Below are positions 1 to 13,055 of a stretch of 33,710 bases of DNA, in pieces. Position numbers and translations under genes: made by a program. The notes beneath the pieces are model-generated. The model worked only from the letters and a program-made list of their open reading frames with translations. It searched no databases and was not told where the DNA came from. Positions within the stretch are counted from its first letter, which is position 1. Every line of letters begins with the position of its first letter. The stretch covers positions 1 through 33,710 of the IMG/VR virus record IMGVR_UViG_3300006868_004576; one strand, written 5' to 3'. The DNA is from a virus.

Positions 1-240
1 CCGAGCAGACCACTGACCCGGACGACCCCCCTTCGAACCAGCCATGATCCGACGCTTCAAACGCTCACGCAACTCCGGCTTCGTGTACGACATGCCCTTC
101 ACCTCAGGGCCATCGCCCTCCAAAAACATGCCAACCGCAACATCAACCCACTCCACAGAACGACCAGACCAGTCCCGTTTCGACTCGACAGGCAGCACCC
201 AGTCACCACGAACAACATCATCAAAACCTTCACGTCCCAT
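1..240 (-). CDS. DUF5872-like protein, C-terminus cut by window edge
   Basis: The reading frame is open from an ATG at 240 to the window edge, so the C-terminus is missing. Near the edge it encodes a Lys/Arg-rich stretch ending SKGG-RPGQWSAR. I recognise this as the core of the DUF5872 family of viral and bacterial proteins of unknown function. The start at 240 is preferred because a GGGAG lies 9 nt upstream. An in-frame ATG at 300 would add a very hydrophobic leader (MRFVLLFLLFVLVVVW), but that stretch is strongly G/T-biased on the coding strand and may be compositional rather than a membrane segment. The gene lies downstream of the SGNH genes on the same strand across a 177-nt gap. The function is unknown. 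Confidence 0.6.
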   Translation of the reverse strand, partial: MGREGFDDVVRGDWVLPVESKRDWSGRSVEWVDVAVGMFLEGDGPEVKGMSYTKPELRERLKRRIMAGSKGGRPGQWSAR

Positions 241-417
241 CCACACATTCTCCCACACAACAACCAACACAAATAGCAAAAACAACAACACGAACCGCAT
301 CAAACTGATACGAAACGTCACACCCACGAGTCTTCAGCCCCGAAACTTTTCCGCGCACGCCACGCCCGCCGGGCGGCGGTGTGAAATATTTTGGGTTGTG
401 GCGTTACTTGATTAGAT
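241..417. other. Intergenic region with composition flip and small GC hairpin
   Basis: No gene is convincing here apart from the possible N-terminal extension of the left-edge gene. Positions 241-300 are 52/60 A+C on the plus strand, while 421-480 are 50/60 G+T, so strand bias reverses within about 120 nt. Between them, 363-375 can form a short hairpin (CGCCC, loop GCC, GGGCG). No U-tract follows on the minus strand, so it is not a standard intrinsic terminator. A promoter for the left-edge gene may lie here, but I see no convincing -35/-10 pair. Confidence 0.5.
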
Positions 418-1263
418 TTATCCGAGTTGTTGGAGTTGTTGGTTGGTGATGGTTTGTTGGGTGAAGTGTTCGGCGATGTGGATTTGTGTGTGGAGTCCGG
501 GGTGTCGGTTGTCGGTTGCGACGTCCCAGTGTTGTTGTTGTTGGGGTGTTTGTGGGGTGTGGGTGCAGTGTGGGGGGTGGAATGGTGTGAGGTTGGCGTC
601 TGACCATTTTGTGAGTGGGGTTTGTTGGGGGTGTTGTGGGTGGTGTGGGTTGATTTGTTGGATGTTGGTGAGGGTGTTTCGGGTGGTTTGGTCCCAACTG
701 GTGATGAGGTGTTGGATGTTGTGGGTTTGTGTCCACCATTGAAGGAGGTAGAGGTGGTCGAGTGTTTTTGTTGTTGCTTGTTCTGGGTGTATTGGGTGTG
801 GTTTGTGTAGTGGTTTTTGTGTTCCGGGTGCTGGTTTGTGTTGGTATGGGGTGTGGTGGTTTTTGGGGTTGTTGATGGTGTAGGTGTGGGTGTGTTGGTC
901 CCAGTTGAGGTAGGTGTGTTGGGTTTTGTTGGGTGTTTGCCAGATGAGGGTGTGGGTGCGGTGTTGTTCTGGGGCGAGTGTCCAGATGTTTTGTGGTGTT
1001 CCGTGTTGTTGTGTGTGTTGTGCGAGTTGTTGTATTTGTGATGCGAGGTTGTCGCCGGGGTTGGCGAGGTTGTTGATTTTTGTGTTTGTGGTTGTGGCTG
1101 CGATGTGGGGCCATGCGTAGTTGGGTGGGAGGAAGGAGCCGTAGGTGATGCTGCAGCCGAGTGTGATGGTGTTGGGGTTTTGGTGGTGTGGGTGTTGTGG
1201 GGGTTTGTGTGGGTATGGGTGTTGGGGGTAGAGGTGGTGTGCGTTTGGGGTTGGTTCGATCAT
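418..1263 (-). CDS. SGNH/GDSL-hydrolase-like protein 1, A/C-only codon style
   Basis: This 281-aa protein has an SGNH-like plan. Block I is GCSIT at residues 36-40, with Ser38 the expected nucleophile, followed by LPPNYAWPHIA. A block II-like NPGDN comes next, and a block V-like TDNRHPGLH lies at about 250-258, giving the Asp and His of the usual triad. It is paralogous to the two genes upstream but lacks about 80 N-terminal residues and their C-terminal tail. Family members are usually esterases, lipases or acyl/acetyl hydrolases; the substrate here is unknown. Codon use is extreme: the 40 codons after the ATG all end in A or C, and the protein is correspondingly rich in His, Thr, Pro, Gln and Asn. 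It starts 4 nt after the 24-aa gene and ends the coupled cluster. Confidence 0.7.
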   Translation of the reverse strand: MIEPTPNAHHLYPQHPYPHKPPQHPHHQNPNTITLGCSITYGSFLPPNYAWPHIAATTTNTKINNLANPGDNLASQIQQLAQHTQQHGTPQNIWTLAPEQHRTHTLIWQTPNKTQHTYLNWDQHTHTYTINNPKNHHTPYQHKPAPGTQKPLHKPHPIHPEQATTKTLDHLYLLQWWTQTHNIQHLITSWDQTTRNTLTNIQQINPHHPQHPQQTPLTKWSDANLTPFHPPHCTHTPQTPQQQQHWDVATDNRHPGLHTQIHIAEHFTQQTITNQQLQQLG

Positions 1264-1267
1264 GGTG

Positions 1268-1342
1268 TTAGTAGGTGTAGGGGGTTTGTGGTTTTTTGCG
1301 GTTTTTGATGCGGCGGTAGATGTGTTTGATTTTGTTGATCAT
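1268..1342 (-). CDS. 24-aa basic peptide coupled to SGNH gene 2
   Basis: The ATG at 1342 overlaps the TGA of the preceding SGNH gene as ATGA, and the frame closes with TAA at 1268, 4 nt before the next SGNH start. The peptide begins MINKIKHIYRRIKNRKK and ends in PYTY. It is strongly basic and carries the same A/C codon bias as its neighbours. It resembles the 31-aa peptide at 2560-2655 in position, in ATGA coupling, in an IYR..K.R basic core and in a Pro-rich end closing on Tyr. The recurrence after two paralogous genes is the main reason to accept so short a gene. No function can be assigned. Confidence 0.5.
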   Translation of the reverse strand: MINKIKHIYRRIKNRKKPQTPYTY

Positions 1343-2523
1343 GTTGGTGGTGTGATTGTGGTGTTGTGCCAGAAGGGGTGGAGGGTTTTGAGGGTGTTGT
1401 TGTCGATTTTGTTGCCGGTGAGGATTTCGTAGTAGTGGATTTGTCGGTGTAGGCCGGGGTGGGGGTTGGGGTGTTTCCAGTGTTTGTTGGCGGCGTGGTC
1501 CCAGAGTTGTTGTTGGTGTGGTGTTTGGGGTTGTAGGTCGCAGGGGCAGTGGGTTGGGTGTGCGAGCCATTTGGTGATGTGGGGGTGGTTGATGTTGCCG
1601 AATTCGTGCCAGTTGGGGTCTGTTGTTGTGGGTTCGTCGGGTTGTTTGTGTAGGTGGGGTGGGATGTGGTGTTGGTGGTGGGGGTAGTTGAGGATGTGGA
1701 GTGTGGCGTTGGTGTTGGGTTCCCAGCCGAGTGTGGTGAGTTTGATGTTGTTGGTTTGGGTGTAGGTGGTGAGGAGGTCGAGTGCGGTGAGGTTTTGCCA
1801 GATTGCTTGGTTTTGGCTGGGGGTGGTTTTTTGGCCGTTGAGGTTGGTGTCGCGGTGTTTTGCTGGGTTGGTTTTGTTTGGTGTTTCGTATTGTTGGGTG
1901 TGTGGGTTGTTGTGGAGTGTTTGTGTGCTGTAGGTGTTGAGGGGGTGTTGGTTGTGTGGGCCGGTGTGTCGGTCGAGTGGGGGTGTGAGGAGGAGTATTT
2001 GTTGTGGGTTGCCGTATTGTTGGATGTGTTTGAAGAGTTTTTGGACGTTGTACCAGATGTTTTGTCCGGGTGTTGCGATGTTGTTGGTGGTGTGTCCGGT
2101 GTGGTGTTGGTGGATGTAGGGCCAGCCGTAGTTGTGGGGGAGTGCTGCTGCTGCTGTGACTGAGCAGCCGAGGGTGATGGTGTGGGGGTTGTGTTGGTGT
2201 TCGTGCCAGTGGTCTCCGTCGGTGTTGATTTGGTGGAGGAGTCCGGGTGTGTCGTGTTTGGGGCGTTCTGGGTTGTGTTGGTGTGCGTACCAGTTGCCGC
2301 CGGTGTGGTAGGTGATGCCGGTTTGGGGGTCGGTTTGGGCGTTGAGTTGTTGGGGGGTTGCTTGCCAGCATCCCCAGTTGTGGAGTGGGTGTTTGTGGTT
2401 GAGGCGGTCGAAGGCGGTGATGCGCCACCATTGGTTGTGTTCGTGGTCGTAGGTGGGGTGGTTTTCTTGTTTGAGGGCGTGGAGGTGTTGTTGTATGGCT
2501 TTGCGGTGGTCGTAGTCGTTCAT
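1339..2523 (-). CDS. SGNH/GDSL-hydrolase-like protein 2, A/C-biased
   Basis: This 394-aa protein aligns along its length with the product of 2652-3827. Shared features are GLLxxINTD near residue 95, block I GCSVT at 119-123 with Ser121, LPHNYGWPYI, TPGQN, a WEPNTN segment, a CxC before a Gln-rich stretch, HPGLHRQIH and a final LHPFW. The Asp that precedes the block V His in paralogue 3 (ADDRH) is replaced here (AANKH), so the usual catalytic dyad may be altered. Asp-free SGNH enzymes exist, so loss of activity is only a possibility. The coding strand is almost exclusively A/C, enriching His, Thr, Pro, Asn and Gln. The ATG at 2523 follows the 31-aa gene by 36 nt, with only an A-rich leader and no clear Shine-Dalgarno. 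Confidence 0.7.
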   Translation of the reverse strand: MNDYDHRKAIQQHLHALKQENHPTYDHEHNQWWRITAFDRLNHKHPLHNWGCWQATPQQLNAQTDPQTGITYHTGGNWYAHQHNPERPKHDTPGLLHQINTDGDHWHEHQHNPHTITLGCSVTAAAALPHNYGWPYIHQHHTGHTTNNIATPGQNIWYNVQKLFKHIQQYGNPQQILLLTPPLDRHTGPHNQHPLNTYSTQTLHNNPHTQQYETPNKTNPAKHRDTNLNGQKTTPSQNQAIWQNLTALDLLTTYTQTNNIKLTTLGWEPNTNATLHILNYPHHQHHIPPHLHKQPDEPTTTDPNWHEFGNINHPHITKWLAHPTHCPCDLQPQTPHQQQLWDHAANKHWKHPNPHPGLHRQIHYYEILTGNKIDNNTLKTLHPFWHNTTITPPT

Positions 2524-2549
2524 TTTTGTTTCGCGTTCTGTGGGTGCGG

Positions 2550-2560
2550 TTAGATTTATC
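2550..2560. repeat. TTAGATTTATC repeat, copy 2 of 3
   Basis: The 11-mer TTAGATTTATC occurs at 412-422 (over the stop codon of SGNH gene 1), 2550-2560 (between the 31-aa gene and SGNH gene 2) and 3214-3224 (inside SGNH gene 3). Copies 2 and 3 lie in a small palindrome, TAGAT-TT-ATCTA. Similar sequence (TTAGATTTAGCC) occurs near 3595. It could be an operator or a duplication remnant, but an 11-mer match between two sites in 3 kb can also arise by chance. Confidence 0.3.
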
Positions 2561-2655
2561 TAGTAGATGTGTGGGGGTGGGAGTTTGTCTCTCCATCGTT
2601 TCCATCGGTAGATGATTCGACGGATTTGGAGCCGCATCATTTGATATGGGTTCAT
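2560..2655 (-). CDS. 31-aa basic peptide coupled to SGNH gene 3
   Basis: The ATG at 2655 overlaps the TGA of the SGNH gene upstream (ATGA), and the frame ends at TAG 2560. The product starts MNPYQMMRLQIRRIIYRWK, is rich in Arg, Lys and Trp, and ends in a Pro-rich PPPHIY. It has the same place, coupling and layout as the 24-aa peptide at 1268-1342. The two look like duplicated accessory peptides, each made with one SGNH protein. The role is unknown; a basic nucleic-acid- or membrane-binding peptide is possible. Confidence 0.5.
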   Translation of the reverse strand: MNPYQMMRLQIRRIIYRWKRWRDKLPPPHIY

Positions 2656-3827
2656 GTGTGTGATCTTAATGTGTTGGGCCCGTAGTAAGGGGGCGGGTTT
2701 TCTGCTTCTTCCCAGAACGGGTGGAGAAGGTCGATGTCTTCTTGGGTGATTCGGAATTGGCCGAAAATTTCTGCGAAATGAATTTGGCTGTGCACCCCGT
2801 GATGCGGATGGTTGCCTGAGTGCCGGTCGTCTGCCCATGTCCACACTTGTTGCACGAATTCGTTTGGTGGCGGCGTTTTGCCGCATGTGCAATAGTCGGA
2901 GTGCCATAACGCATGTTCTTTCGGCAAAGCAACACCTTGGTGCTGTTCCTGAAGGCTTGGTATCGGAGAGTTCGTGAACGGGTCGATCAACCCGTTTTCT
3001 CGCCAGATTTCCAGACGTTCCGACCCTGTGGTCCAGTGTTCTGGGAGTGGCTGCATTTGCTGCTGTAACCGCATTTGACCTAAAGCGAAGTTTGTGTAGG
3101 GCTCCCACGAGTAGGTTCGCAGTTCGATGTTCATTGCATCGCAGAGGCCCGCGAACGTTTCGAGAAGGAGGAGGTTGGTGTGAGCAACAATATCCGGACT
3201 GATCGTCAACGGTTTAGATTTATCTAAGAGTTTGGATTGGAGTTCTAAGGGGACGGGTCGTCCTTTTTTGTCTCCGACGACGTATTGACGTTGAACGTAA
3301 TCGAATACAGCAGTCGGTGAACCGTGTAGATCGAAGCGGAGGATGTCTGGCAACAGAAAGCACAGCACGTCCGGAGGGCCGTAGCGTTTTATCATTGCCG
3401 TAGCATTAGCGATAATTTCCGCCACACCGGCTCCCGGCATGCCGAAAGCATTGATGGAAACATCAAGTTGCGTTGCCATGATGTGTGGCCAAGAGAGGTT
3501 GTATGGCAGCCCCATGACATGTGTTTGTGAGCATCCGATTGCCATGTAGTCGGGGTTTGACACAAAATTTGGGCCAACAAACTCATCGGTGTTGATTAGA
3601 TTTAGCCGACCTTGCTCGTATTTTTCTTGATTGAACTGAGTGCCCTGATATGAGCAAGGGCCAAGTTCGGGATGGATAAAAACGTCATCGCCCCCGTTTG
3701 TTGGTCTCAGTTGCTGCTGACCGCGTTTGTATGGCCAGCGATTACCTATTTCGAATTCCCTGATTTGGGCTATGTCTATGTAATGCTCCGCTGTCTCGTA
3801 TTCACTGCGGATTTCATTGTTTACCAT
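2652..3827 (-). CDS. SGNH/GDSL-hydrolase-like protein 3, normal composition
   Basis: This 391-aa protein is the ordinary-composition member of the three paralogues. Block I is GCSQT at residues 98-102 (nucleophile Ser100), followed by LPYNLSWPHIMA. GMPGAG fits block II. A hydrophobic strand (DVLCFLLPD) precedes the middle, a WEPYTN segment is shared with paralogue 2, and the C-terminal WADDRH...HHGVHSQIHFAEIF supplies Asp and His in a block V-like position. A CTC triplet of residues before this block is also shared. No signal peptide is evident, so a cytoplasmic role is likely. Its ATG lies inside the end of the P450 gene (7-nt overlap), which suggests coupled translation and a shared pathway. 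The substrate is unknown; acyl- or acetyl-group chemistry is the family norm. Confidence 0.75.
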   Translation of the reverse strand: MVNNEIRSEYETAEHYIDIAQIREFEIGNRWPYKRGQQQLRPTNGGDDVFIHPELGPCSYQGTQFNQEKYEQGRLNLINTDEFVGPNFVSNPDYMAIGCSQTHVMGLPYNLSWPHIMATQLDVSINAFGMPGAGVAEIIANATAMIKRYGPPDVLCFLLPDILRFDLHGSPTAVFDYVQRQYVVGDKKGRPVPLELQSKLLDKSKPLTISPDIVAHTNLLLLETFAGLCDAMNIELRTYSWEPYTNFALGQMRLQQQMQPLPEHWTTGSERLEIWRENGLIDPFTNSPIPSLQEQHQGVALPKEHALWHSDYCTCGKTPPPNEFVQQVWTWADDRHSGNHPHHGVHSQIHFAEIFGQFRITQEDIDLLHPFWEEAENPPPYYGPNTLRSHT

Positions 3828-5062
3828 TGGACTTTCATCCGCTTGATTCCGTTACCCCACTTACTGAAACCGTATTCGATTTCGTCAGCGTAACGAATGT
3901 CGGGCATTTTCTCGATCAGGTTTGCGAAGACCGAACGAAGTTGTGCTCGCGCAAGCGGTGCCCCAATGCAGTGGTGGATTCCGGGTGCGCCATATGCGAC
4001 GTGAGATGGGTGAGTGTCGCGCGTTACGTCGAACGTTTCGGCGTTACGGAAAACTGTTTCGTCACGATTCGCAGAGTAGTACCAGACGACAACTTTGTCA
4101 CCTTTTTTGATTTCGGTGCCGTGCAACTCGGTGTCTTGGGTTGCGGTTCTACGGAAATACATGGCGGGTGTCTGGAGGCGCGCCATTTCTTCGATGGCGG
4201 TTTTCCAGTGGTCGTCGTAGTTGTCCCACAAAAGTTTTCTTTGATCCGGGTTTTCGGTTAGCCGTTTGATTCCACCCGAGGTGACGTGCTGGGTTGTTTC
4301 GATACCACCCATGATGAGCACCATGAACAACGATCCGAAATCGGCATCGTTGAGCACACCACCTTCTTTTGCGTTGACCAGAAGACTGGTGAGGTCGTTC
4401 TTGGGATTTTGGCGCCGTTCTTCGGCGAGTCGCCCTGCGTACTCGGTGATTGAGATGCATGCGTTGAGGAACGTGTCAGCGCGCTCTCCGCCGTGATACT
4501 CCGGATCGCTGTTCCCCGTAATTTCACGAACCCGGTCGTGCATCCATTTTTTGTCTTCGTCGGCAACACCCATCATTTCGCATGTGATTTCTGTCGGGAT
4601 GCGCGCGGAGAGTTCTTGATGGATGTCGCACGTGCGTTCCGGATATTTTTCAATAATTTCGTCGATGATCTGGGGGGTGATTCTTTCAACAAGTTTTGTG
4701 ACGTCTGCGATTTGGGTTGGCCCGAATGCTCGCTGGACGATTGACCGCACTTCGTGGTGTCGCGGGTTGTCGAGAGCCAGTAGCGAACCGAAATATTCGA
4801 AAATGTGTTTCGGTAGGTCAGTGATTAGGTAGCCCTCGCTTGCGCAAAATAGTTCTGGGTTTCGAGATACGTATGTTGCGTCGTCGTAAAGGGTGACGGC
4901 CCAGTACCTTTTGTCCGGAAGATCTTTTTTGGAAAATTGGGGCAGCCCATGGAAGTGGGTGTATGCGCGGAAGTGCGCGAATCTTTGATCTCGTTTCGCT
5001 CGATCGGCGTCGTTGAGGCACCAGTCAGAAATCCAGTTGTCGGCGAAATGTTTGTCGCTCAT
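3821..5062 (-). CDS. Cytochrome P450
   Basis: This 413-aa protein has full-length bacterial class I P450 size and all the usual marks. The I-helix motif is GGIETT at 252-257, and the ExxR motif is E292/R295. The region around FRRTATQDTEL is typical of actinobacterial P450s, and the heme loop YGAPGIHHCIG has the Cys ligand at 365, with Tyr in place of the usual Phe at its start. The wording of the 303-350 region resembles the CYP125/CYP124 group of sterol and lipid hydroxylases, but that is too little to name a substrate. No ferredoxin or reductase is encoded nearby, so host redox partners would be needed. The ATG overlaps the carbamoyltransferase TGA as ATGA, tying it to that gene. P450s are rare in phages. 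Confidence 0.93.
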   Translation of the reverse strand: MSDKHFADNWISDWCLNDADRAKRDQRFAHFRAYTHFHGLPQFSKKDLPDKRYWAVTLYDDATYVSRNPELFCASEGYLITDLPKHIFEYFGSLLALDNPRHHEVRSIVQRAFGPTQIADVTKLVERITPQIIDEIIEKYPERTCDIHQELSARIPTEITCEMMGVADEDKKWMHDRVREITGNSDPEYHGGERADTFLNACISITEYAGRLAEERRQNPKNDLTSLLVNAKEGGVLNDADFGSLFMVLIMGGIETTQHVTSGGIKRLTENPDQRKLLWDNYDDHWKTAIEEMARLQTPAMYFRRTATQDTELHGTEIKKGDKVVVWYYSANRDETVFRNAETFDVTRDTHPSHVAYGAPGIHHCIGAPLARAQLRSVFANLIEKMPDIRYADEIEYGFSKWGNGIKRMKVQW

Positions 5063-6501
5063 GAGACGATCCTTACTTGTGGGTTAAGTTCTTTCCATAT
5101 TAAGACATCGAGTTCGTCGTTCAACATTGGCTGATCCCTAACGTTGAGGCTTGTGTTCAGCAGGATTGGGATGCCTGTTTGTCTGTTCCACATGCTTAAT
5201 ACGTCGTAGAGGCCGGGGTGTTGGTATTCGTTGACTGTTTGGACCCGGGAGGTTCCGTCGGCGTGGACGACCGCTGGCATTAGGTCAGGGCGTCGTGCTT
5301 TCACGGCAAATTGCATGTAGGGGGCGGGCCGGTCGAGGTCGAACCACTCGTCGGCGTGTTCTTCCATGACGATGGGTGCGAATGGACGGAAGGGTTCACG
5401 ATTTTTTACTTCGTTGACCCTGTCTTTCATGTTTTTGGGTCGCGGGTCGGCGAGCAGGCTGCGGTTGCCGAGTGCTCTCGGTCCGAATTCTGCTGCTCCG
5501 TTTGCTACAGCAACAATCCCGTCGGTTGACAGGATGTCAATGATGTCTTCGCTGGGGTAGAACTTGTTGCCAATTGCGTGCCCAAGGTATGGCCCTCTCC
5601 ATGGGACGTGGCTGTTGTGGGCAGCGAGTGCTGCGCCGAGGCTTGATCCAGCGTCTCCCGGGTTGGGCATGATCCACACTTCGTCCCACATGTCGAGGAG
5701 TTTTGTGTTGGCGGCGCAGTTGAGCGCGCAGCCTCCCATAAAAACGAGATTTTGGGTTGCCGAGTCTCTGCGAACGTGACGCATCAAGTCGATGAGCCGG
5801 TTTTCGTAGATCAGTTGGACTGCTGCGGCGATGTCAAATTTATCTTGGTCTGTTTCAATTTGGTGAGGCCAGTCAACACCGAGATGAAAGTTTTGTGTTT
5901 GGCTGTTCCAATTGGGGAACATTGCGTTTACTTCGCCGGCGTATCGTGCGGGGTCACCGTATGCCGCCATTCCCATGAGTACGTATTCATCGAATCCGGG
6001 TTTTAGTCCTACGAGTTGGGTGAATGCGCTGTAGAAAAGCCCATACGAAACGGGGTACCGAAGTCGTTCGCGTTTTTGGATGTGAGTTCCCCAAGCGTCC
6101 CAAACTGTTGCGGTTTCGAACTCGCCGATTGCGTCGAGGACGACGACGACGGCTTCGTCAAACGTCGATGTGTAATACCCGGCGGCGGCATGCGAAAAGT
6201 GATGGGAGACTTGTATTTCTCTGGGCCACGGATAGTTATACGTCTCTTTGTATAACTTGTTGTATGTACCGTTTATGCCTCCGTACAAAAATTTGCGGAG
6301 CCGCTTCAAAGATCGTTTTTCAAAATACGCGATTAAATCTGGGGGTTCGGAAAGCGCCTCTTCAAGGAGTTCATCGGCTAACTCGAACGTATTTTTTTGT
6401 TTGTTGTACCGTTCGCTGTGCGCGGCAAAAACAATTTCGCCGTTGTCTACGACGCTGACTGCTGCATCGTGACTTGAGTCGTTGATACCTAGGATCCGCA
6501 C
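5059..6501 (-). CDS. NodU/CmcH-type carbamoyltransferase
   Basis: This 480-aa enzyme has the signatures of O-carbamoyltransferases of the NodU/CmcH/TobZ family. These use carbamoyl phosphate and ATP to make carbamoyl-adenylate and then transfer the carbamoyl group to a hydroxyl. The N-terminus MRILGINDSSHDAA is the start of the Kae1-like domain. HHFSH at 100-104 is the metal-binding motif, with GGCALN at 256-261. EFGPRALGNRS at 338-348 and DGTSRVQTV at 415-423, with LLNTSLNV, form the C-terminal domain. It is somewhat shorter than many members. The start is the GTG at 6501, which places ILGIND at the family N-terminus; no strong Shine-Dalgarno is visible. The acceptor is unknown: a hydroxylated small molecule, sugar or 5-hydroxymethyl base are options, and neighbouring oxygenases could create the hydroxyl. 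Confidence 0.92.
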   Translation of the reverse strand: MRILGINDSSHDAAVSVVDNGEIVFAAHSERYNKQKNTFELADELLEEALSEPPDLIAYFEKRSLKRLRKFLYGGINGTYNKLYKETYNYPWPREIQVSHHFSHAAAGYYTSTFDEAVVVVLDAIGEFETATVWDAWGTHIQKRERLRYPVSYGLFYSAFTQLVGLKPGFDEYVLMGMAAYGDPARYAGEVNAMFPNWNSQTQNFHLGVDWPHQIETDQDKFDIAAAVQLIYENRLIDLMRHVRRDSATQNLVFMGGCALNCAANTKLLDMWDEVWIMPNPGDAGSSLGAALAAHNSHVPWRGPYLGHAIGNKFYPSEDIIDILSTDGIVAVANGAAEFGPRALGNRSLLADPRPKNMKDRVNEVKNREPFRPFAPIVMEEHADEWFDLDRPAPYMQFAVKARRPDLMPAVVHADGTSRVQTVNEYQHPGLYDVLSMWNRQTGIPILLNTSLNVRDQPMLNDELDVLIWKELNPQVRIVS

Positions 6502-6520
6502 GTTGCAGATATTAGCCGAT

Positions 6521-6538
6521 AGCAGTTTTACAACTGCT
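6521..6538 (-). promoter_or_regulatory. GNRA-capped hairpin around a stop codon
   Basis: On the minus-strand RNA, AGCAGUU pairs with AACUGCU (7 bp) around a GUAA loop, a GNRA tetraloop. The UAA stop of the gene at 6528-7010 is the last three bases of the loop. The hairpin sits 20 nt upstream of the GTG of the carbamoyltransferase gene, which lacks a clear Shine-Dalgarno. There is no U-tract, so termination is unlikely. A role in translational coupling or RNA processing is possible but unproven. Confidence 0.4.
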
Positions 6539-7010
6539 CTAGATCGTCGACAGAAATTACGCGTGTGTTTTCTGGATCGTATTTTGCGGGCTGGCCGATT
6601 TCCCATGCGTCGTCATATTTTTTCCAACCAAATACTTCGACTTGCATCATTTCGGGAAGTATTGGTCGGGCAACGAACAAAACCAGCCCTTTTCCCAACT
6701 GGTGGCGTCGGACAGCGGCGGACATTTGGGTTCTGATCCGACGAACTTCGATATTGTCGCCGACGTCTGGAAGATCTCGATACAGGTTGTGTTCCGATTT
6801 GTGCCAGACGTGACCAGACCAGTATCTATTGGTTGCTTTTGCTACCGCCAACTCGCATACACATGCTGCGGCTTGAGCAGTTCTATCGTCTTCCATGTTT
6901 TTGCGGTGGTAATGGGGTGCGTCTTGTTTTCCCCAATTTGCTGCGTGACGTCGAGCGGCGATTTGTAGTGCGTGGTCATATTCCCACGGGTATAGGTCAA
7001 TTAGTTTCAT
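6528..7010 (-). CDS. Possible PD-(D/E)XK nuclease-fold protein
   Basis: This 160-aa protein has a helix-rich N-terminus, then ELAVAKATNRYW, then LPDVGDNIEVRRIRT, then a hydrophobic strand (LVLFVARP) and VEVFGWKKYDDAWEIG. The order Glu-helix, D-x(n)-EVR and a late FGW strand is like phage proteins of the PD-(D/E)XK nuclease fold. This assignment is by pattern only, and a catalytic Lys is not evident (EVR rather than ExK). The start is the ATG at 7010, which overlaps the primase-helicase TGA as ATGA; a longer frame beginning in the primase gene is less likely. It is translated between the replication gene and the carbamoyltransferase, so a role in phage DNA metabolism is plausible. Confidence 0.6.
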   Translation of the reverse strand: MKLIDLYPWEYDHALQIAARRHAANWGKQDAPHYHRKNMEDDRTAQAAACVCELAVAKATNRYWSGHVWHKSEHNLYRDLPDVGDNIEVRRIRTQMSAAVRRHQLGKGLVLFVARPILPEMMQVEVFGWKKYDDAWEIGQPAKYDPENTRVISVDDLEQL

Positions 7011-8788
7011 GATATGTCCATAAATTCTAGTACTTCGAATGGGAATTTTTTGCCGCGTGTCATTTGGACTGGCCACGCTCGTAGGTCACGGGCACCACGG
7101 AAGTGGTTGACGTCGTAAATGTATTGTCCGTGTGCGGTTGGGTCAGGCTGTAAGGCCAAACCGAACTCTGGCCATCTGGACCACACTGCGGAACCGAATG
7201 GTCGAAGTTCGCGGGAGGTCATAGTCTGTCCGAGTGGAGCGTGATGCTCCAGCCAGAGCGCACAGTTGTATGTGGATCTGATTCGGTCCAAATATTTGGC
7301 CACCTCGATTGCTACTGCTTCTGACGTTTTGGTTCCGGGGTCAAGAAACGCCTTGTAGATCGGTCCCATCACCAAAAGTTCGGGTTCCACCTTTTCTATG
7401 TGCTCTTCAAGGATGGTTCGGTCAGCGACCGAGAGCAGGTTCAGGCCATCCGGCTTGATGACAAGGTGTACGTCGCCGGTGCGTTCATAACCCATTGAGC
7501 GTGCAGCGCCAATTATCGATGTTGAGGTTCGACGGATAATCCGCTCTGGGTTTTCGAGGTCAACTGTAAGGGTGCGAATTTTTGGCATCCGCTGAAAGGT
7601 GAACGGGTGCACCCCGAAGCCTGAGCAGATCGCGATTTGACGGGCAAGCATCGTTTTACCGACGCCCTCTGCCGCAACCACCATCACTCGTTCTTGTCGC
7701 TCAAGCAAGCCGGGCAACAGCCAGTCGTAAGAGTCGTCGACTTCTTCTTCAATGAAGTCAACCCAGTTGACTAATTTGCCTTCATCTCGTTCGACAACCT
7801 GATCATCTCCCGCGAGGGCGATGTCAGCGATTTTGAGTAGGAGTGATTGGGGTTTGCGGTCTGTCTCTAGGAGTTCTGCAATTTTCTGTAAGGCGCGTTC
7901 TTGCGGGGTGAGTTCTTCTTCTGCAATTTCTGGTTCTTCACCGTCTTCGGGCTGTTCCTCAGCGACAACATCTTGCCCTTCAAATTCTGCAGCGAGTTCG
8001 GAAACCTCGATTTGGACGACGTCCGTGGTGGGGAGTCCGGCTTGTAGGTGGTCGTAGATGTCTTTATGGTCAGGACACCTCCATACCGCAACATCGCTGC
8101 CAGCGTCTGCGAGGAGTCGAGCGACGAGGAGAGCGTGTCGTCGTCCGGGTTCGTCGTTGTCGACGATGATGTCCACGACTGCTCCAGACAGAGCCTCAGT
8201 GTGTATGTCGAGCCATTTACCTGCCCCTCCGGGCATAGTCGTGGCACAAGCACCCAGCGCGATGAGGGCGTCAGCATCTTTTTCTCCTTCTACGAGGAAG
8301 ATGGTGTCTCCCTCTTCTTTGGCTTTTAGTACTGCAGGTAGGTTGTATAGGACTTTCGGTGTATCGCCGAGTTTGTATGTCCACCCGCCTTGTCCGTCGG
8401 GTTTACGCTGGCGAAATGTTTTCTTTCCGTCAGGTTCTACGTAGCGGACTTTTTCAAATAGCAGATGTCCGTCGGAATCTTTATATTCGTATTTGGCGAC
8501 GAATTTGAGTTTGGGGCGGTCTTGTTTCGGGTATGGGTTGTCGTCGATGATTCGGTCTGATTGGGGCCATAGGTCTTTGACGTCTAAGCCTACGGATTTG
8601 CAGATTTCTGGCGTGTTGCAACCACCGTTGCGATGACAGAAAAGAACGATCTTGCCGTCTTCGTTTTCGTGGACGGAAAGCGACGGGTTTCGGTCATCTT
8701 GTCGGCATGGGCATCGCGCTTCCCACCCGTTGGCTGACGATACGACTCCGTCTAATCTCGATAGGAACTCACTTGTATGTTGAAACAT
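7007..8788 (-). CDS. Bifunctional primase-helicase (Toprim + RecA-like)
   Basis: This protein of about 593 aa combines primase and helicase parts. Near the N-terminus CPC (26, 28) and CHRNGGC (51-57) form a CHC2-like zinc finger. A Toprim domain follows, with VEGEKDADAL near 165 and IVDNDEPGR near 207. After a Glu-rich linker there is a RecA-like ATPase with Walker A AAEGVGKT at about 372-379, a strand TLTVDLENPE and a Walker B-like LLVMGPIY. It should prime and unwind DNA at the phage fork, like T7 gp4-type proteins. The ATG at 8788 gives MFQHTSEFLS and a 20-nt overlap with whiB; a GTG at 8809 would add seven residues. It ends in an ATGA overlap with the next gene. Confidence 0.9.
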   Translation of the reverse strand: MFQHTSEFLSRLDGVVSSANGWEARCPCRQDDRNPSLSVHENEDGKIVLFCHRNGGCNTPEICKSVGLDVKDLWPQSDRIIDDNPYPKQDRPKLKFVAKYEYKDSDGHLLFEKVRYVEPDGKKTFRQRKPDGQGGWTYKLGDTPKVLYNLPAVLKAKEEGDTIFLVEGEKDADALIALGACATTMPGGAGKWLDIHTEALSGAVVDIIVDNDEPGRRHALLVARLLADAGSDVAVWRCPDHKDIYDHLQAGLPTTDVVQIEVSELAAEFEGQDVVAEEQPEDGEEPEIAEEELTPQERALQKIAELLETDRKPQSLLLKIADIALAGDDQVVERDEGKLVNWVDFIEEEVDDSYDWLLPGLLERQERVMVVAAEGVGKTMLARQIAICSGFGVHPFTFQRMPKIRTLTVDLENPERIIRRTSTSIIGAARSMGYERTGDVHLVIKPDGLNLLSVADRTILEEHIEKVEPELLVMGPIYKAFLDPGTKTSEAVAIEVAKYLDRIRSTYNCALWLEHHAPLGQTMTSRELRPFGSAVWSRWPEFGLALQPDPTAHGQYIYDVNHFRGARDLRAWPVQMTRGKKFPFEVLEFMDIS

Positions 8789-9110
8789 TTTGCACTCGTT
8801 TTGTTCCACGTCCGGGCATGTTGATCATGCCTTGCCGTTGAGGGAAAATGTTTCTTTTTATACGGACCTCGTGCCGTTGCGACTCGTCAAGCCCACCCCA
8901 TATTCCATATGGTTCCCAGTGCAGCGAGTATTCGAGGCACTGGTCTTTTACTGAGCATCCGGAGCAAATTTCTTTTGCTTTGCGGATGTTTTCCTCTATT
9001 TTTCGGTGGACGTCGCGTGTCCTCTTCATGTCTCGAAGAGGAAACCACATTTCGACGTCGTGGCCTTTGCAGGCACCTCCTGTTGGTGGCGCTTCGGGTA
9101 TTGCTGTCAT
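8769..9110 (-). CDS. whiB: WhiB-family Fe-S transcriptional regulator
   Basis: This 113-aa protein has the four Cys that bind the 4Fe-4S cluster: C14, C49, C52 and C58, with C-x2-C-x5-C spacing in the last three. The GIWGG turn at 69-73 is followed by the basic C-terminal tail used for DNA contact. WhiB-like proteins bind the primary sigma factor of actinobacteria and redirect transcription, and they respond to redox or NO. In mycobacteriophage TM4 a WhiB homologue inhibits host WhiB2. The ATG overlaps the preceding TGA (ATGA), and the 3' end overlaps the primase-helicase start. The gene is the best single indicator that the host is an actinobacterium. Confidence 0.95.
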   Translation of the reverse strand: MTAIPEAPPTGGACKGHDVEMWFPLRDMKRTRDVHRKIEENIRKAKEICSGCSVKDQCLEYSLHWEPYGIWGGLDESQRHEVRIKRNIFPQRQGMINMPGRGTKRVQNVSTYK

Positions 9111-9520
9111 GGTCCCCCAATGATCCGGTAGATGTCGTCTTTTGAAAGGTAGACCACCGCGTATTGGACGCTACTCCTACCAGATTCTTGTATTTCTTGA
9201 TGCAGACCTATCGCTTCCGTTGGGACCCCCAGTGTTTTGGCCAGTCGGGAAGCGAGTTGGTTGGTGGTGATTTCATCTTGGGCGATCTGAGCGCCAAAGT
9301 CAACAACCTCGACGTTTACTTGTTGTAAACCTTCTGGTTCTTGGCGATTTTTGACACGCAGACATGTGACGCACCCGAGTTTTGGGGCTGTCGAAGCGCG
9401 CGGGCGACTCTCGATGTGGCCGCATTCAAGATGATGTAAATATTTTACGTTTCCCCAGCCGCCGACACGGTCGATCGACTCGACGGTCTTGCGTGGGGCC
9501 TTACGATGTTCGGTAGTCAC
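9107..9520 (-). CDS. Unknown protein with a CxH...CxxC putative zinc site
   Basis: This 137-aa protein is of no family I recognise. ECGH (C33, H35) and CVTC (C50, C53) could form a zinc knuckle after a basic N-terminus. The second half is predicted to be helical (NQLASRLAKTLGVPTEAIGLHQEI) with a final strand-rich segment. The start must be the GTG at 9520: an in-frame TAG precedes it directly, and no other ATG, GTG or TTG occurs before the Cys motif. That GTG lies in the loop of a hairpin (9507-9530). The gene couples to whiB by ATGA and sits in the replication/regulation part of the operon. Confidence 0.75.
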   Translation of the reverse strand: MTTEHRKAPRKTVESIDRVGGWGNVKYLHHLECGHIESRPRASTAPKLGCVTCLRVKNRQEPEGLQQVNVEVVDFGAQIAQDEITTNQLASRLAKTLGVPTEAIGLHQEIQESGRSSVQYAVVYLSKDDIYRIIGGP

Positions 9521-9530
9521 CTACCGAATA
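9507..9530 (-). promoter_or_regulatory. Hairpin holding the GTG start codon in a GNRA loop
   Basis: TTCGGTAG (9528-9521 on the minus strand) pairs perfectly with CTACCGAA (9516-9509) around a 4-nt GTGA loop. A flanking wobble and a T-A pair may extend the stem to 10 bp. In RNA the loop is GUGA, a GNRA tetraloop, and its first three bases are the start codon of the 137-aa gene. The purine-rich GGUAG that could act as a ribosome-binding site is locked in the stem. This would favour translation only when the hairpin is melted, for example by ribosomes finishing the upstream gene 11 nt away. As DNA it could also be an operator. Confidence 0.5.
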
Positions 9531-9878
9531 TTACTCAGATGCCTCGTCGGCCTCAGTCGCCTCGTCGGGCTTTTCGGTGTTGACGAGCGTGATCAGGATG
9601 CGGGCGTAGCGCTCCATCGTGGGAAGGTCAAGCGGGAACGGCAGGTCCTCTTCGATTGTGTGGTGCCCGATGATCTCGTACATGAAAAGCGCATTGCCGT
9701 CATCGTCGAACATCTGTACGGGCTTAAGGACGTGAAGCGTCTTGTTGTCGTATCGGATGTCGTAGGAGCCCCACTCGTCAGTGTGCAAAATCACACCTTG
9801 GTAGTGGCTGCCGAGATCCATGACGGCCTCGACCTGATCTGATTCGACTGCTGGGAGATCTTCGACTGATTCGCTCAT
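9531..9878 (-). CDS. Small acidic protein of unknown function
   Basis: This protein of 115 aa starts MSESVEDLPA and is strongly acidic at both ends (C-terminus EKPDEATEADEASE). The middle has alternating hydrophobic strands: VMDLGSHYQGVILHTDEWGSYDIRY, then HVLKPVQMFDDDGNALFMYEIIGHH. This suggests a small beta-rich fold. I do not recognise the family. The ATG at 9878 is 20 nt after the upstream dioxygenase stop, and no good Shine-Dalgarno is visible; an ATG at 9929 inside the preceding gene is an alternative. It lies between the dioxygenase block and the replication block of the same operon. Confidence 0.65.
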   Translation of the reverse strand: MSESVEDLPAVESDQVEAVMDLGSHYQGVILHTDEWGSYDIRYDNKTLHVLKPVQMFDDDGNALFMYEIIGHHTIEEDLPFPLDLPTMERYARILITLVNTEKPDEATEADEASE

Positions 9879-9897
9879 GACGGCAAATATACCATTT

Positions 9898-10641
9898 TCA
9901 CTCGTCGTCCGGTAGAGGTTCTGATCCATCCGGAGCCTCGTTGCCCGGGTTTGTCACCAGCCGGTCTACCTTATGGCAGTCGCGCCATTTCATGCGCCAC
10001 GTGTCGTCCAGTTCTGCGTGCTGGACCATGGCGACGGTCTTGGCCCGAGTCCAAAAATGGGCGGAAATGAATCGTTCACCACCGAGGATTTTCCTGACGC
10101 CGTGGATATACGGGTCGGTGCATGGCATCATCACGAGCATTCCGGCGGATGGCTTGATCTGCAGTTCGGGTCGGTAAAAATAAAGTTCTCCGCCATCAAA
10201 ATCGTCGTTGTAATACAAGATTGTTGCTATGTCGTGAAAGGCGATCGCCGCTGGCGTCTGTCCGTCTCCGTCTTTTTGGCGGAAGTCCAATGTCCAATCA
10301 GCGTGCGCGGAGTCGTGGTGCAACCCCTGCTCCATGCCGGCAACCCACTTGCGAAAATACCAAGTCGAGTTGGTCAAAAACGTTTCACCGAATTTATGTT
10401 CGACGGCAGCGTTGATCTTGCCAACCAGTTCAGACTCTTTACGCTCAACGTGAGGCCAGTGCATGGCATCAGGGTTGATGGAGTAATGGTTCGGTTGATC
10501 TAACTGTTCGTGGTGATCATTTGGGGGGATCTCATTCCAGAAGCCCTCATTGCGAACATTTTTTTGCCAGAAGGACAGTTCATCTCCACTGATGAAGTTG
10601 GGGAAAATGTAAAGTTGAGGGTAAGCCTCGCGTAGATCCAT
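9898..10641 (-). CDS. 2-oxoglutarate/Fe(II) dioxygenase, prolyl-4-hydroxylase-like (A1)
   Basis: This 247-aa protein has the double-stranded beta-helix signature of the 2OG-Fe(II) oxygenases. Iron ligands are H108-x-D110 in LHHDSAH, and the distal His is probably H180 in DPYIHGV. R190 in GGERFISAHFW should hold the 2OG carboxylate. YYNDDFDGGELYF is typical of the P4H-like subfamily, and an NFISGDELSFW N-terminus is shared with the next gene. These enzymes hydroxylate proteins, small molecules or nucleic acids; the target here is unknown. It is separated from its paralogue upstream by one base (TGA-C-ATG), a recent-looking tandem duplication. It is the last of four adjacent dioxygenase genes. 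Confidence 0.88.
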   Translation of the reverse strand: MDLREAYPQLYIFPNFISGDELSFWQKNVRNEGFWNEIPPNDHHEQLDQPNHYSINPDAMHWPHVERKESELVGKINAAVEHKFGETFLTNSTWYFRKWVAGMEQGLHHDSAHADWTLDFRQKDGDGQTPAAIAFHDIATILYYNDDFDGGELYFYRPELQIKPSAGMLVMMPCTDPYIHGVRKILGGERFISAHFWTRAKTVAMVQHAELDDTWRMKWRDCHKVDRLVTNPGNEAPDGSEPLPDDE

Positions 10642-10642
10642 G

Positions 10643-11329
10643 TCAGTCCTCTGGCGGTCGGGATTCAGTGTGTTCCAGCATTTTTAAGGCATCTTGTGGG
10701 TTTCGGTAAATCCACTCCCAGTTGCTCATGTCGGGTTGGGCGATTGCCATTGCGACAGTTTTGCATCGTGTCCAAAAGTGGGCGCTCATGAAGCGCTCTC
10801 CCGCAGTTACTTCTAGGACTTCATGCACATGTGTGCAGGGGAACATGATCAGCATCCCGGGTGTCGGTTTGATTTTCAAATCGCAATCCGGGAATCGAAT
10901 TTCCCCACCTTCATAGTCGTCGTTGTAGTACAAGATGGTCGCGAAATCGTTGAACGCCATTGGCAGGCGGTTTGGGTACTTGTTTTGTAAGTCGAGTTCG
11001 TAACGCTGGTAAAACGCGTCGCTGTGCTCTACAAGGCGGAAACCTTTTTCCCATTTGCGGAACGAAATTGAGTGGTCAGATAAAACTTTTTCGCCGAACG
11101 TGTTTTCGACTTCCTCGTTAATCCGGTTGACTAATTCCCTTTCGCCTTTATAAAACGCGTCGTGGTCGTCGACGTCTTGGAAAATCAATGGGAATGCCTG
11201 TTGGTCAAAAACTAGGTGTTCGCCAGCCAGTTTGTAAAAACCCGGTTTCGTAAAATAACGCATCCAAAAAGAAAGTTCGTCTTTCGACAAAAAATTCTCG
11301 TTTACATGGATGGATTTACTGCTTTTCAT
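10643..11329 (-). CDS. 2-oxoglutarate/Fe(II) dioxygenase, prolyl-4-hydroxylase-like (A2)
   Basis: This 228-aa protein is a paralogue of the preceding entry. Shared features are ENFLSKDELSFW, H102-S-D104 in VEHSD, YYNDDYEGGEIRF, a distal His in CTHVHE (H169), R179 in AGERF, and the same SAHFWTR-CKTVAMA ending where A1 has TRAKTVAM. The active site appears intact. The start is the ATG at 11329 (MKSSKSIHVN), 14 nt inside the previous gene; a longer frame is open upstream but would lie wholly within that gene. The two P4H-like copies differ most in the N-terminal half, which often sets substrate choice, so they may act on different targets. Confidence 0.87.
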   Translation of the reverse strand: MKSSKSIHVNENFLSKDELSFWMRYFTKPGFYKLAGEHLVFDQQAFPLIFQDVDDHDAFYKGERELVNRINEEVENTFGEKVLSDHSISFRKWEKGFRLVEHSDAFYQRYELDLQNKYPNRLPMAFNDFATILYYNDDYEGGEIRFPDCDLKIKPTPGMLIMFPCTHVHEVLEVTAGERFMSAHFWTRCKTVAMAIAQPDMSNWEWIYRNPQDALKMLEHTESRPPED

Positions 11330-11963
11330 CAGGTTTCTTTGGCTGATCAACGATTGGTCGTTCCCAGTATACCGACCAGTCGGCATTCGGACTGAGTGTT
11401 GGCTCTACCGGACCCCAGTTCATACTGACTACAAGCCGAGAATCTTGGCTTTTATGTCGCGATGTCATGTGCTGGATGAACGAGTTGAAAATGACTACGG
11501 TGCCAACTTCTGGTTTGACGCTGACAGTGCTACTCATTGTCGCGCAGTAATCAACATTGAACACCAATTCCGCTGACCCTTCTGGTACTTGCGGGTAGTA
11601 AGTAACACTGAAGAATTCGTGTGGGTGAAGGTGAAGATTTGAGTGGTGGGAGTGGGCGATGACGCTCTGGTTGTATTCGAGGTCAACTGCCCACGTATCG
11701 TGAAGCATGTAGTCGCGTCCGGTCAAATGTTTGAGCCGGTCATGAACGGCCTCCTGCAGTTTGACCACTTCTGGGGTGATTGGCATGACGAGATCTTCGA
11801 ACTGAACGAAGCCACGGGAAATAATCCCGTACTCCGGGCATGCCTGCTCAATTGTCTGTGCGTAGTTTTTTATATCGGATGCGATCTGGAGCGGGTCAAC
11901 GTCATCAATTTTCCCAGTCCAGATCCCGAGGTCGATCAGCGAAACGCGTTCTAGGTCAATCAT
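11316..11963 (-). CDS. Putative 2OG-Fe(II) oxygenase, TIGR02466-like
   Basis: This 215-aa protein resembles the putative 2OG-Fe(II) oxygenases described as TIGR02466. It has LHDTWAVDLEYNQ, a His cluster at 104-115 (HSHHSNLHLHPH) before FFSVTYYP, and P151-GTVVIFNSFIQH with H165 as probable distal ligand. R176 in SRLVVSMNW probably binds 2OG. The exact ligand in the His cluster is not clear by eye. This is a different subfamily from its neighbours on both sides. The ATG at 11963 overlaps the upstream TGA as ATGA, so the longer open frame is not used. Members are common in phages and their targets are mostly unknown. Confidence 0.8.
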   Translation of the reverse strand: MIDLERVSLIDLGIWTGKIDDVDPLQIASDIKNYAQTIEQACPEYGIISRGFVQFEDLVMPITPEVVKLQEAVHDRLKHLTGRDYMLHDTWAVDLEYNQSVIAHSHHSNLHLHPHEFFSVTYYPQVPEGSAELVFNVDYCATMSSTVSVKPEVGTVVIFNSFIQHMTSRHKSQDSRLVVSMNWGPVEPTLSPNADWSVYWERPIVDQPKKPDEKQ

Positions 11964-12640
11964 TCGGTAAAGAAATCTCCGGTTTGGAGAGCGGAAGGCG
12001 GGCAGTCCTTGTGCCACACGTTGATGACCATCACCTGCCTTTTGCCGCTCAAAGTTCTTGTTGTTTCGTGAAGCCGGTGACCGGCGTCAAAAACGACGAG
12101 GCGGTTCGGACGGTACTTGATTCGCTCCCGTTCGTCAATCGTCGACAGGTGTTGATCGATGACGTCGCGTTCCAACTGCTCTGAGCCTTCGGGGACGACG
12201 CTGTTGTGAAGTTCCAAAAAACCGCCGGTCGCTTCGCTTGTTCCGTACCAGACGCAACCAATTTTTGGTCCATGGAAAATCTTGTCGCTCGCATACAGGA
12301 ACGTGTCCTCGTCGCAGTGGGGAGCGAGGAACTGGCCGACACCGAACGTGCGTGTCCAGTATTCGAAACCGACGATGTCTTCGATCGGATACGGCAGGAT
12401 GCCGGGGGTAGACCAAATCGCTTCGATAACTTTTTTGCGATTCGTGTCTGCGGGCGAGCGCCACCATCCGTCCCAAAACATGTACGGCGCGTAGCAGTCG
12501 CATTCCGTATCGTGGAACTCGTTTAGGTATTCGCCGATGTTGTCGTGCCCGGACATGTCGTCAGGGAAAAACGTGGGGTCAGCGTCTACTGCTGCCAGCA
12601 GGTCGCTTGGGATGAAGTCGTCCTGCACCCGCAGAAACAT
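11960..12640 (-). CDS. 2-oxoglutarate/Fe(II) dioxygenase-like protein (third type)
   Basis: This 226-aa protein has APHCDEDTF with H108-x-D110, a GGFLELH strand and a C-terminal GHRLHETTRTLSGKRQVMVINVWH. There H188 or H191 is the distal iron ligand and R201 the 2OG-binding residue. It begins MFLRVQDDFIP, the usual opening of P4H-like folds, but differs in length and wording from A1 and A2. It is translated first of the four dioxygenases. The ATG at 12640 follows a GGTAGG-rich leader that overlaps the end of the 39-aa gene, an acceptable ribosome-binding site. The substrate is unknown. Confidence 0.85.
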   Translation of the reverse strand: MFLRVQDDFIPSDLLAAVDADPTFFPDDMSGHDNIGEYLNEFHDTECDCYAPYMFWDGWWRSPADTNRKKVIEAIWSTPGILPYPIEDIVGFEYWTRTFGVGQFLAPHCDEDTFLYASDKIFHGPKIGCVWYGTSEATGGFLELHNSVVPEGSEQLERDVIDQHLSTIDERERIKYRPNRLVVFDAGHRLHETTRTLSGKRQVMVINVWHKDCPPSALQTGDFFTE

Positions 12641-12642
12641 CG

Positions 12643-12762
12643 CTACCTACCTTTTTGGCGTTTCAGAATTCGTTTCGCCCGTTGAAGGGTCATTTGCCGT
12701 TTTGGCACTCCGGAAAATATTGACGCCAGACGGATGATTTCCTCTGCGTCCTCGTTGTTCAC
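12643..12762 (-). CDS. 39-aa basic protein of unknown function
   Basis: A GTG at 12762 overlaps the TGA of the histone-tail-like gene as GTGA, and the frame ends with TAG at 12643, 2 nt before the first dioxygenase ATG. The product begins MNNEDAEEIIRLASIFSGVP and continues with a Lys/Arg-rich helix (RAKRILKRQKGR). The tight fit between two coupled genes supports it as real. No family is recognised. Confidence 0.6.
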   Translation of the reverse strand: MNNEDAEEIIRLASIFSGVPKRQMTLQRAKRILKRQKGR

Positions 12763-13055
12763 TTCTTGAACTTCGTCACGAGGCGAGCGATCCATGACGG
12801 CTTCTCCAAGATGATTTCTTCGGTAATTTCGACGGCTGGTGCTGGTGCTGGTGCTGGTGCTGGCTCTGTGGCGGTCTTGGGCTTGGGTGCCTCGGCGTAA
12901 GGCCCGGTTGGCTTTTGCTTTGGCGGGTTCTTTTTGGCGGGCGCCTTCTTCGCGGGTGACTTCTTAGCAGGCGCCTTTTTCGCGGCTGTGGCCTTTGCCG
13001 GGGTCTTCTTGGCTGGCGTCTTCTTGGCCGGCGTCTTTTTCTTATTGGTGCTCAT
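12759..13055 (-). CDS. Histone-H1/HU-tail-like Lys-Ala-Pro-rich protein
   Basis: This 98-aa protein consists of about 50 residues of KTPAK/KKAPAKK repeats, then a Pro-rich linker with an APAPAPAPA run, then a short C-terminus ending SWIARLVTKFKK. The repeats match the Lys/Ala/Pro tails of histone H1 and actinobacterial HU, which bind DNA without sequence preference. It may coat phage or host DNA. The low-complexity sequence means homology to a named family cannot be shown. It is the first gene of the leftward unit, divergent from the plus-strand gene that begins within about 50 nt, so the leftward promoter must lie in or near that gap. I see no clear -35/-10. Confidence 0.75.
   Translation of the reverse strand: MSTNKKKTPAKKTPAKKTPAKATAAKKAPAKKSPAKKAPAKKNPPKQKPTGPYAEAPKPKTATEPAPAPAPAPAVEITEEIILEKPSWIARLVTKFKK
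12835..12863. repeat. GCTGGT hexamer tandem repeat
   Basis: Nearly five copies of the hexamer GCTGGT (the last ends GC) lie inside the histone-tail-like gene and encode its Ala-Pro run. Copy number could vary between related phages by slippage, changing the linker length without a frameshift. Confidence 0.8.

Follow-up and report, generated by a model that had tools for sequence, protein, structure and literature searches.

Origin-like loci with extreme strand-asymmetric base substitution in a group of never-grown phages

Two SGNH-like genes in the window analysed here, the 33,710 bases of an IMG/VR phage record, were described in the initial annotation as having almost no G or T on their coding strand, raising the question of what drives such a composition. 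The bias is stronger than that description. The coding (minus) strand is 84% A+C in SGNH1 (418–1263) and 81% in SGNH2 (1339–2523), and third positions are A or C in 96% of codons of either gene, against 61% in the paralogue SGNH3 (2652–3827), whose normal composition had been recognised from the start. At silent third positions A or C occupies 607 of 608 sites over the two genes, with a single exception (four-fold sites 288/289, two-fold sites 319/319). By our own arithmetic the chance of such saturation is ~10^-109, taking an A/C frequency of 0.66 as typical for neighbouring genes. Plus-strand blocks of 100 bases reach 92% G+T, in agreement with the stretches of 90% or more reported initially, and SGNH3 and the genes rightward of it are of ordinary composition.

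Segmentation of base composition placed the skewed stretch, hereafter the strong lobe, at 371–2590, and the last G/T silent base of a small ORF at its far edge lies at 2620. Besides both SGNH genes, the stretch (~371–2620) takes in a small basic ORF (1268–1342) and intergenic DNA. The bias is strongest at the freest sites and reaches first and second codon positions, remaking the proteins: the amino acids favoured are His, Gln, Asn, Thr, Pro and Lys where the coding strand is the A/C strand, and Val, Gly, Leu, Phe and Trp where it is the G/T strand. Codon alignment to SGNH3 gave the proposed excess of G-to-A and T-to-C changes on the coding strand (171 against 34 in the reverse direction for SGNH2, 115 against 20 for SGNH1). 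It did not bear out a process limited to transitions, as G-to-C and T-to-A changes were equally biased (144:23 and 129:13); with 28% identity to the paralogue and this transversion bias, the alignment alone cannot show a transition-only process. The purine share of four-fold sites is 0.28–0.55 inside lobes and overlaps that outside (0.26–0.55), which fits transitions as the main path. A run of 40 A/C-ending codons near 13050 was considered as another lobe and rejected, as it belongs to the gene of an alanine/lysine/proline-rich protein (12759–13055); this small histone-H1-like protein is conserved in relatives (L132:782–1126). Elsewhere in the window, the capsid gene (16982–18316) has A at only 2% of third positions and a G+C content above that of its neighbours.

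The GCSxT, PG and HPG-x-H motif residues listed initially are present, and G98–S100 and H342/H346 are invariant across all three SGNH paralogues. The GCSxT block and the HPG-x-H motif are shared with SGNH/GDSL hydrolases; however, a curated-family search returned no significant match for the window SGNH proteins, which would be passengers and not the source of the bias. The Lipase_GDSL_2 match of a skewed relative (L132:6250–7113) was weak (E 0.006, below the cut-off), an AlphaFold model for the SGNH fold was too poor to use (mean pLDDT 35), and a search of cultured phages found no homologues of SGNH2 or SGNH3. Small basic ORFs with ..PY.Y-like endings follow SGNH genes in the window (1268–1342, 2560–2655), L119 and L122; they are similar by eye and seem to form a conserved pair with the SGNH genes. 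The window SGNH genes share a cluster with P450, carbamoyltransferase and several 2OG-Fe oxygenase genes (3821–12640), to which the cluster of a related phage, G017, adds a tryptophan halogenase (L136:16584–18065). Read from its gene content, the cluster would serve some DNA, glycan or small-molecule modification. A carbamoyltransferase that modifies cytosine was reportedly described in eLife in 2021.

The bias had been presented as a property of two genes, and this did not hold. Contig L018 (G002), which overlaps the window at 99.6% and extends leftward, carries the LEFT gene (L018:1610–2350, window 327 leftwards), transcribed in the same direction as the SGNH genes. The LEFT coding strand is ~89% G/T-ending, with 91% G/T at four-fold sites. 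The skewed stretch is one half of a bipolar feature, in which LEFT is biased oppositely. The sign reverses at window 370 by segmentation, or at L018:1559 (window 378), and the element containing the reversal is flanked by a strong lobe of ~2.2 kb and a weak lobe of ~1 kb (Table 1). Across 34 loci of more distant phages the LEFT homologues show ordinary third-position composition, and LEFT has therefore changed in place. Beside one more distant homologue (L035), a weaker flip from 0.37 to 0.62 G+T is seen at ~6540, ~500 bases upstream of the gene.

Table 1. Features of the flip and the adjoining lobes, in window coordinates
Feature	Position	Strand	Remarks
LEFT gene 5' part, DUF5872-like	1..327	-	opposite (weak) lobe, coding strand G/T-ending; extends to L018:2350
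Flip element, origin-like, conserved noncoding	327..425	-	GATAAATCTAA(C), A-tract, C-rich hairpin, GCGCGGAAAAGTTTcGGGgCT; bias sign reverses within; six-genome alignment
GGAAAAGTTTCGGGGCT block	336..352	-	conserved in L119, L132, L122, L110
Hairpin CGCCC-GCC-GGGCG	363..375		sequence and strain variants
Strong lobe	371..2620		plus strand 82% G+T; minus strand A/C-only at silent sites, one SGNH exception
GATAAATCTAA motif	412..422	-	strong lobe's flip end; conserved at flip in five relatives
SGNH1, SGNH-like hydrolase, 281 aa	418..1263	-	putative passenger, strong lobe
Small basic ORF (MINKIKHIYRRIKNRKKPQTPYTY)	1268..1342	-	separates both SGNH genes; read from sequence
SGNH2, SGNH-like hydrolase, 394 aa	1339..2523	-	putative passenger, strong lobe
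Second motif copy (CTAGATAAATCTAA)	2550..2563	-	near strong lobe's far end; equivalents L119:8912, L122:13542, L132:6186
Small basic ORF (MNPYQMMRLQIRRIIYRWKRWRDKLPPPHIY)	2560..2655	-	crossed by lobe's far edge; translation and silent bases
SGNH3 paralogue, normal composition	2652..3827	-	outside strong lobe; further motif copies at 3214, 3596

The short motif of the flip is rare except at or near the flip and the far edge of the lobe; its core TTAGATTTA has four copies in the window, against 0.02 expected, and SGNH3 contains two of the four. The few positions at which the window differs from the near-identical contigs L018 and L021 include four (362, 364, 365 and 378) that cluster in the flip hairpin, which is kept. 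The few differences among near-identical contigs include no C-to-T or A-to-G excess in the lobe, where little such polymorphism would be expected anyway at saturation; ongoing hypermutation was rejected, there being no sign of it among these contigs. Contig ends are unusually frequent in and around the skewed region: the window itself begins there, G002 begins at 1936, G001 and L006 stop at 2262 and 2574, and G006 stops ~6 bp or less from the flip. This may be an assembly effect. Comparison of overlapping contigs for circularity of the window phage gave no overlap.

Relatives were found by searching viral contigs with the helicase-primase and carbamoyltransferase. The search for homologues and mapping of skew limits in related phages, as proposed initially, located an A/C lobe, a sharp flip and a G/T-ending LEFT, all at the same place, in L119, L132/G017 and L122, and a fragment (L110) has a related pattern. 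The genes in the slot differ. In L122 and L132 it holds an SGNH gene and an HNH endonuclease (HNH_3, E 9.5e-10). In L119 the slot gene lies on the opposite strand, with 100% G/T at coding-strand third positions. Stop codons are rare in such DNA and ORF length alone is therefore no evidence; this gene was recognised by its strong three-base periodicity. A TauD-like oxygenase was not supported as its identity, and it was left unnamed. Other lobes carry WhiB and C-5 cytosine methylase genes, and one G009 gene (L153:3470–3823) has A/C-ending codons at its start and G/T-ending codons at its end, placing the flip inside a single gene. Given the varied slot genes and the opposite-strand gene of L119, the bias follows strand and position, not gene or direction.

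The WhiB-like genes and a helicase-primase resembling those of Arthrobacter and Gordonia phages suggest Actinomycetota as hosts; LEFT gene DNA had no match in the bacterial genomes searched. G017 also encodes a 1132-aa protein with an Mtd N-terminal domain (L137:11027–14425, E 2.5e-18), and a search of its genome for a reverse transcriptase gave none. A family-A or pol III DNA polymerase was sought in the relatives and none found. PF00383 proteins occur in three relatives; they look by eye like ordinary dCMP deaminases, and a PF00383 deaminase was set aside as the mutator on that ground.

Two relatives were taken as complete or nearly so from their end repeats: G017 (137,029 bp, with a 141-bp exact repeat) and G009 (137,166 bp, with a 298-bp repeat of 96.6% identity). 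Both genomes contain a pair of sharp flips, at ~1.45 kb and 104.6 kb in G017 and at ~43.6 kb and 18.0 kb in G009, and the bias is confined to these two loci, sites A and B. The polarity runs from A/C on the left to G/T on the right at all four flips, and in the other genomes after orientation. A flip statistic computed with 600-bp half windows was 0.41–0.54 at the flips and at most 0.16 elsewhere in these genomes (the top values in L151 and L110 mark other lobe edges, not the flip proper). It stayed at or below 0.13 in T7, lambda and Arthrobacter phage Ranunculus, and did not exceed 0.26 across 80 other viral loci (855 kb). The bias is thus positional and strand-linked, with a sharp sign flip that is conserved in relatives and present at two sites per genome. 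Site A adjoins a gene matching the helicase-loader family PHROG 2289 (E 1.9e-6 in G009, 8.1e-5 in G017). The conserved element at the flip of site B, common to six genomes, comprises ATAAATCYAA, an A-tract and a C-rich stretch, with a GGAAAAGTTTGCGGGRCT-like block in five. Outward from site B the sign persists as a weaker skew over distances of several kb to tens of kb, including a weak gradient to its left in G017 and G009. The strong lobes point away from the 25–34 kb arc separating both sites, and lobes end after 1–2.6 kb, abruptly in the window and G017 and as a gradient in some genomes (L119, L122).

In a maximum-likelihood tree of 17 SGNH proteins, four switches between the skewed and unskewed states are required. 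Well-supported branches force three or more of these, and none of 200 bootstrap trees (0%) had a single change. The skewed G017 and L122 pair (third-position A/C 0.93–0.95) is sister to G009 and L120 copies that lie in lobe-free stretches (0.31–0.36). On this tree the skewed SGNH genes are polyphyletic, with the A/C bias estimated to have arisen on no fewer than three occasions. Several rows have a composition that breaks the assumptions of the tree model, and the argument is therefore carried by the well-supported groups and not by the exact placement of SGNH1 and SGNH2.

Between the skewed genes of L122 and L132, 24 of 27 four-fold differences are A–C exchanges and two-fold sites hardly differ, as expected at the boundary of a one-way process; purifying selection on strand composition would look alike. 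In the weak lobe, two-fold sites retain A at 9/159 and C at 31/127, A being more depleted than C. In the LEFT genes of L018, L119, L122 and L132, silent C after A was kept at 18/31 sites before A or T and at 6/68 before C or G, counts that come from non-independent homologues. In the C-5 cytosine methylase gene of G009 (L151:16538–17770), both ends are A/C-saturated and a middle patch is less skewed, as if recently recombined and still being changed.

We consider it likely that these loci are replication origins with extreme, probably mutational, strand-asymmetric substitution. Their polarity, the conserved element at the flip, the putative helicase loader at site A and the outward skew from site B together suggest two origins, and by established replication geometry the polarity would be that of an origin, not that of a terminus or of 5'-resected ends. 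On both sides of the ~100-bp element (window ~327–425), the G/T strand would be the leading strand of the outgoing fork, which has the same sequence as the displaced lagging-strand template. Its partner would be driven to A/C by one-directional substitution until silent sites were at or near 100%. Genes in the lobes would be altered passively in either direction, the SGNH pair being passengers that retain core motifs. The abrupt lobe ends in the window and G017 count against an origin, since fork-linked skew should fade gradually.

That the force is mutational is argued with less certainty than the origin itself. Deamination of exposed single strands is a textbook cause of strand skew, and in the single-stranded state cytosine deaminates over 100 times faster (review PMC3269012). 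The force may be deamination in a D-loop-like bubble whose single strands persist for long. Simple cytosine deamination would not give the observed pattern, in which both strand-changes are equally saturated and A is lost more than C in the weak lobe. Alternatively, G–T wobble errors made while the first kilobases of the leading strand are copied would yield both changes together. A more specific scheme, which we put forward only tentatively and with some doubt, would have two mirrored origins with stable bubbles of 1–2.6 kb and a dedicated one-way process, either a deaminase acting on C and A in single-stranded DNA or a wobble-prone initiating polymerase; genes in the bubble would be rewritten in a two-letter alphabet and still function.

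Skews on bacterial chromosomes are usually small and megabase-wide. Two papers (PMC3174206, PMC3269016) describe a change of skew sign at one point, with the leading strand richer in G and T regardless of gene direction. The phage flips share the sign change, the outward G/T enrichment and the independence of gene direction, where the G/T strand is the leading strand only if an origin sits at the flip. They differ in that silent sites approach 100% within 1–2.6 kb, the flip occurs inside ~100 bp, and there are two per genome. In vertebrate mitochondrial DNA, strand-displacement replication leads to C-to-T and A-to-G changes on the strand left single-stranded (review PMC3269012). By analogy only, the phage pattern resembles this strand-specific pair of changes; it differs in being bipolar and local, A loss in the weak lobe equals or exceeds C loss, and the D-loop here is putative. 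Some phage origins lie beside helicase-loader genes, as in the SPP1 type, and site A would share this arrangement through its PHROG 2289 match.

Among the causes offered initially, strand-specific base change fits the evidence and the others do not. Selection against G in mRNA is contradicted by LEFT, the L119 cassette gene and the 3' half of L153:3470–3823, all G/T-rich on the coding strand. Selection could instead act on the strand itself, for instance if a recombinase or primase is loaded on a G/T-rich single strand or if a strand free of structure keeps the origin bubble open, with purifying selection holding A/C. One exception in 608 sites does exceed ordinary mutation bias, and the near-restriction of L122/L132 differences to A–C exchanges would be its signature; but a mutational boundary predicts the same shortage of transitions. 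The extension of the bias into first and second codon positions with its peak at the freest sites is a mutation-pressure pattern, and the less skewed methylase patch in G009 indicates that the locus tolerates unskewed DNA. We regard such selection as unlikely. A genome end, packaging or recombination site, where resection or terminase processing would leave one strand unpaired, appears less likely still. Contig ends do crowd near the flip, although low-complexity sequence is another cause of broken assemblies. With 5'-to-3' resection or 3' ends left unreplicated, it is the other strand that would be exposed, and the polarity would be reversed. In G017 both sites lie in one molecule with a 141-bp end overlap, the assembly reading through each.

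The transcription-linked bias suggested initially would require divergent promoters or a stable R-loop at the element. The G/T coding strands of LEFT and the L119 cassette gene are what non-template damage would give, but SGNH1/2, the SGNH and HNH genes of G017/L122 and WhiB are arranged oppositely. Neither site B nor the site A flip itself coincides with a change of gene direction; the sign reverses at ~370 with transcription direction unchanged, the L119 gene runs the opposite way and the G009 gene is split. This makes a transcriptional cause very unlikely; a primer transcript may still set up the origin bubble. It is highly improbable that the skewed cassette came in as a mobile unit and brought its composition with it, despite motif copies at both boundaries, an HNH gene inside it in two phages and a lower four-fold divergence than its neighbour between L122 and L132 (0.19 vs 0.64). 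LEFT, outside the cassette, is oppositely biased in every relative examined, no fewer than three changes are required on the SGNH tree, and site A flips alike with unrelated genes. Plain import from a genome of such composition, raised in the initial annotation, is rejected on the same tree and on a bias limited to two loci in 137-kb relatives. Cassette exchange among phages probably occurs, and is not the cause of the bias. Targeted diversification of SGNH genes by a hypermutation system could be read from the fact that two of the three paralogues are hit and that one relative has an Mtd_N tail protein. This is scarcely credible, as no reverse transcriptase (PF00078) was found in seven related records, some of them partial, there is no excess of polymorphism, and unrelated genes are affected equally.

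The feature is real and unusual, and belongs to the locus, not to two genes; it is best read as replication-linked strand asymmetry around a probable origin. A limited literature search found no report of such local saturation in phages, an absence that proves little. In DNA of this kind rare stop codons produce long spurious ORFs, and calling horizontal transfer from composition would mislead. If the loci are origins, they would be among the most strongly strand-biased double-stranded DNA known to us, sequence alone would locate candidate origins to within ~100 bp in phages not yet cultivated, and the cause of replication skew would become testable at saturation. The HNH nuclease, WhiB, cytosine methylase and SGNH hydrolases in the lobes indicate how far base composition can push proteins while core motifs persist.
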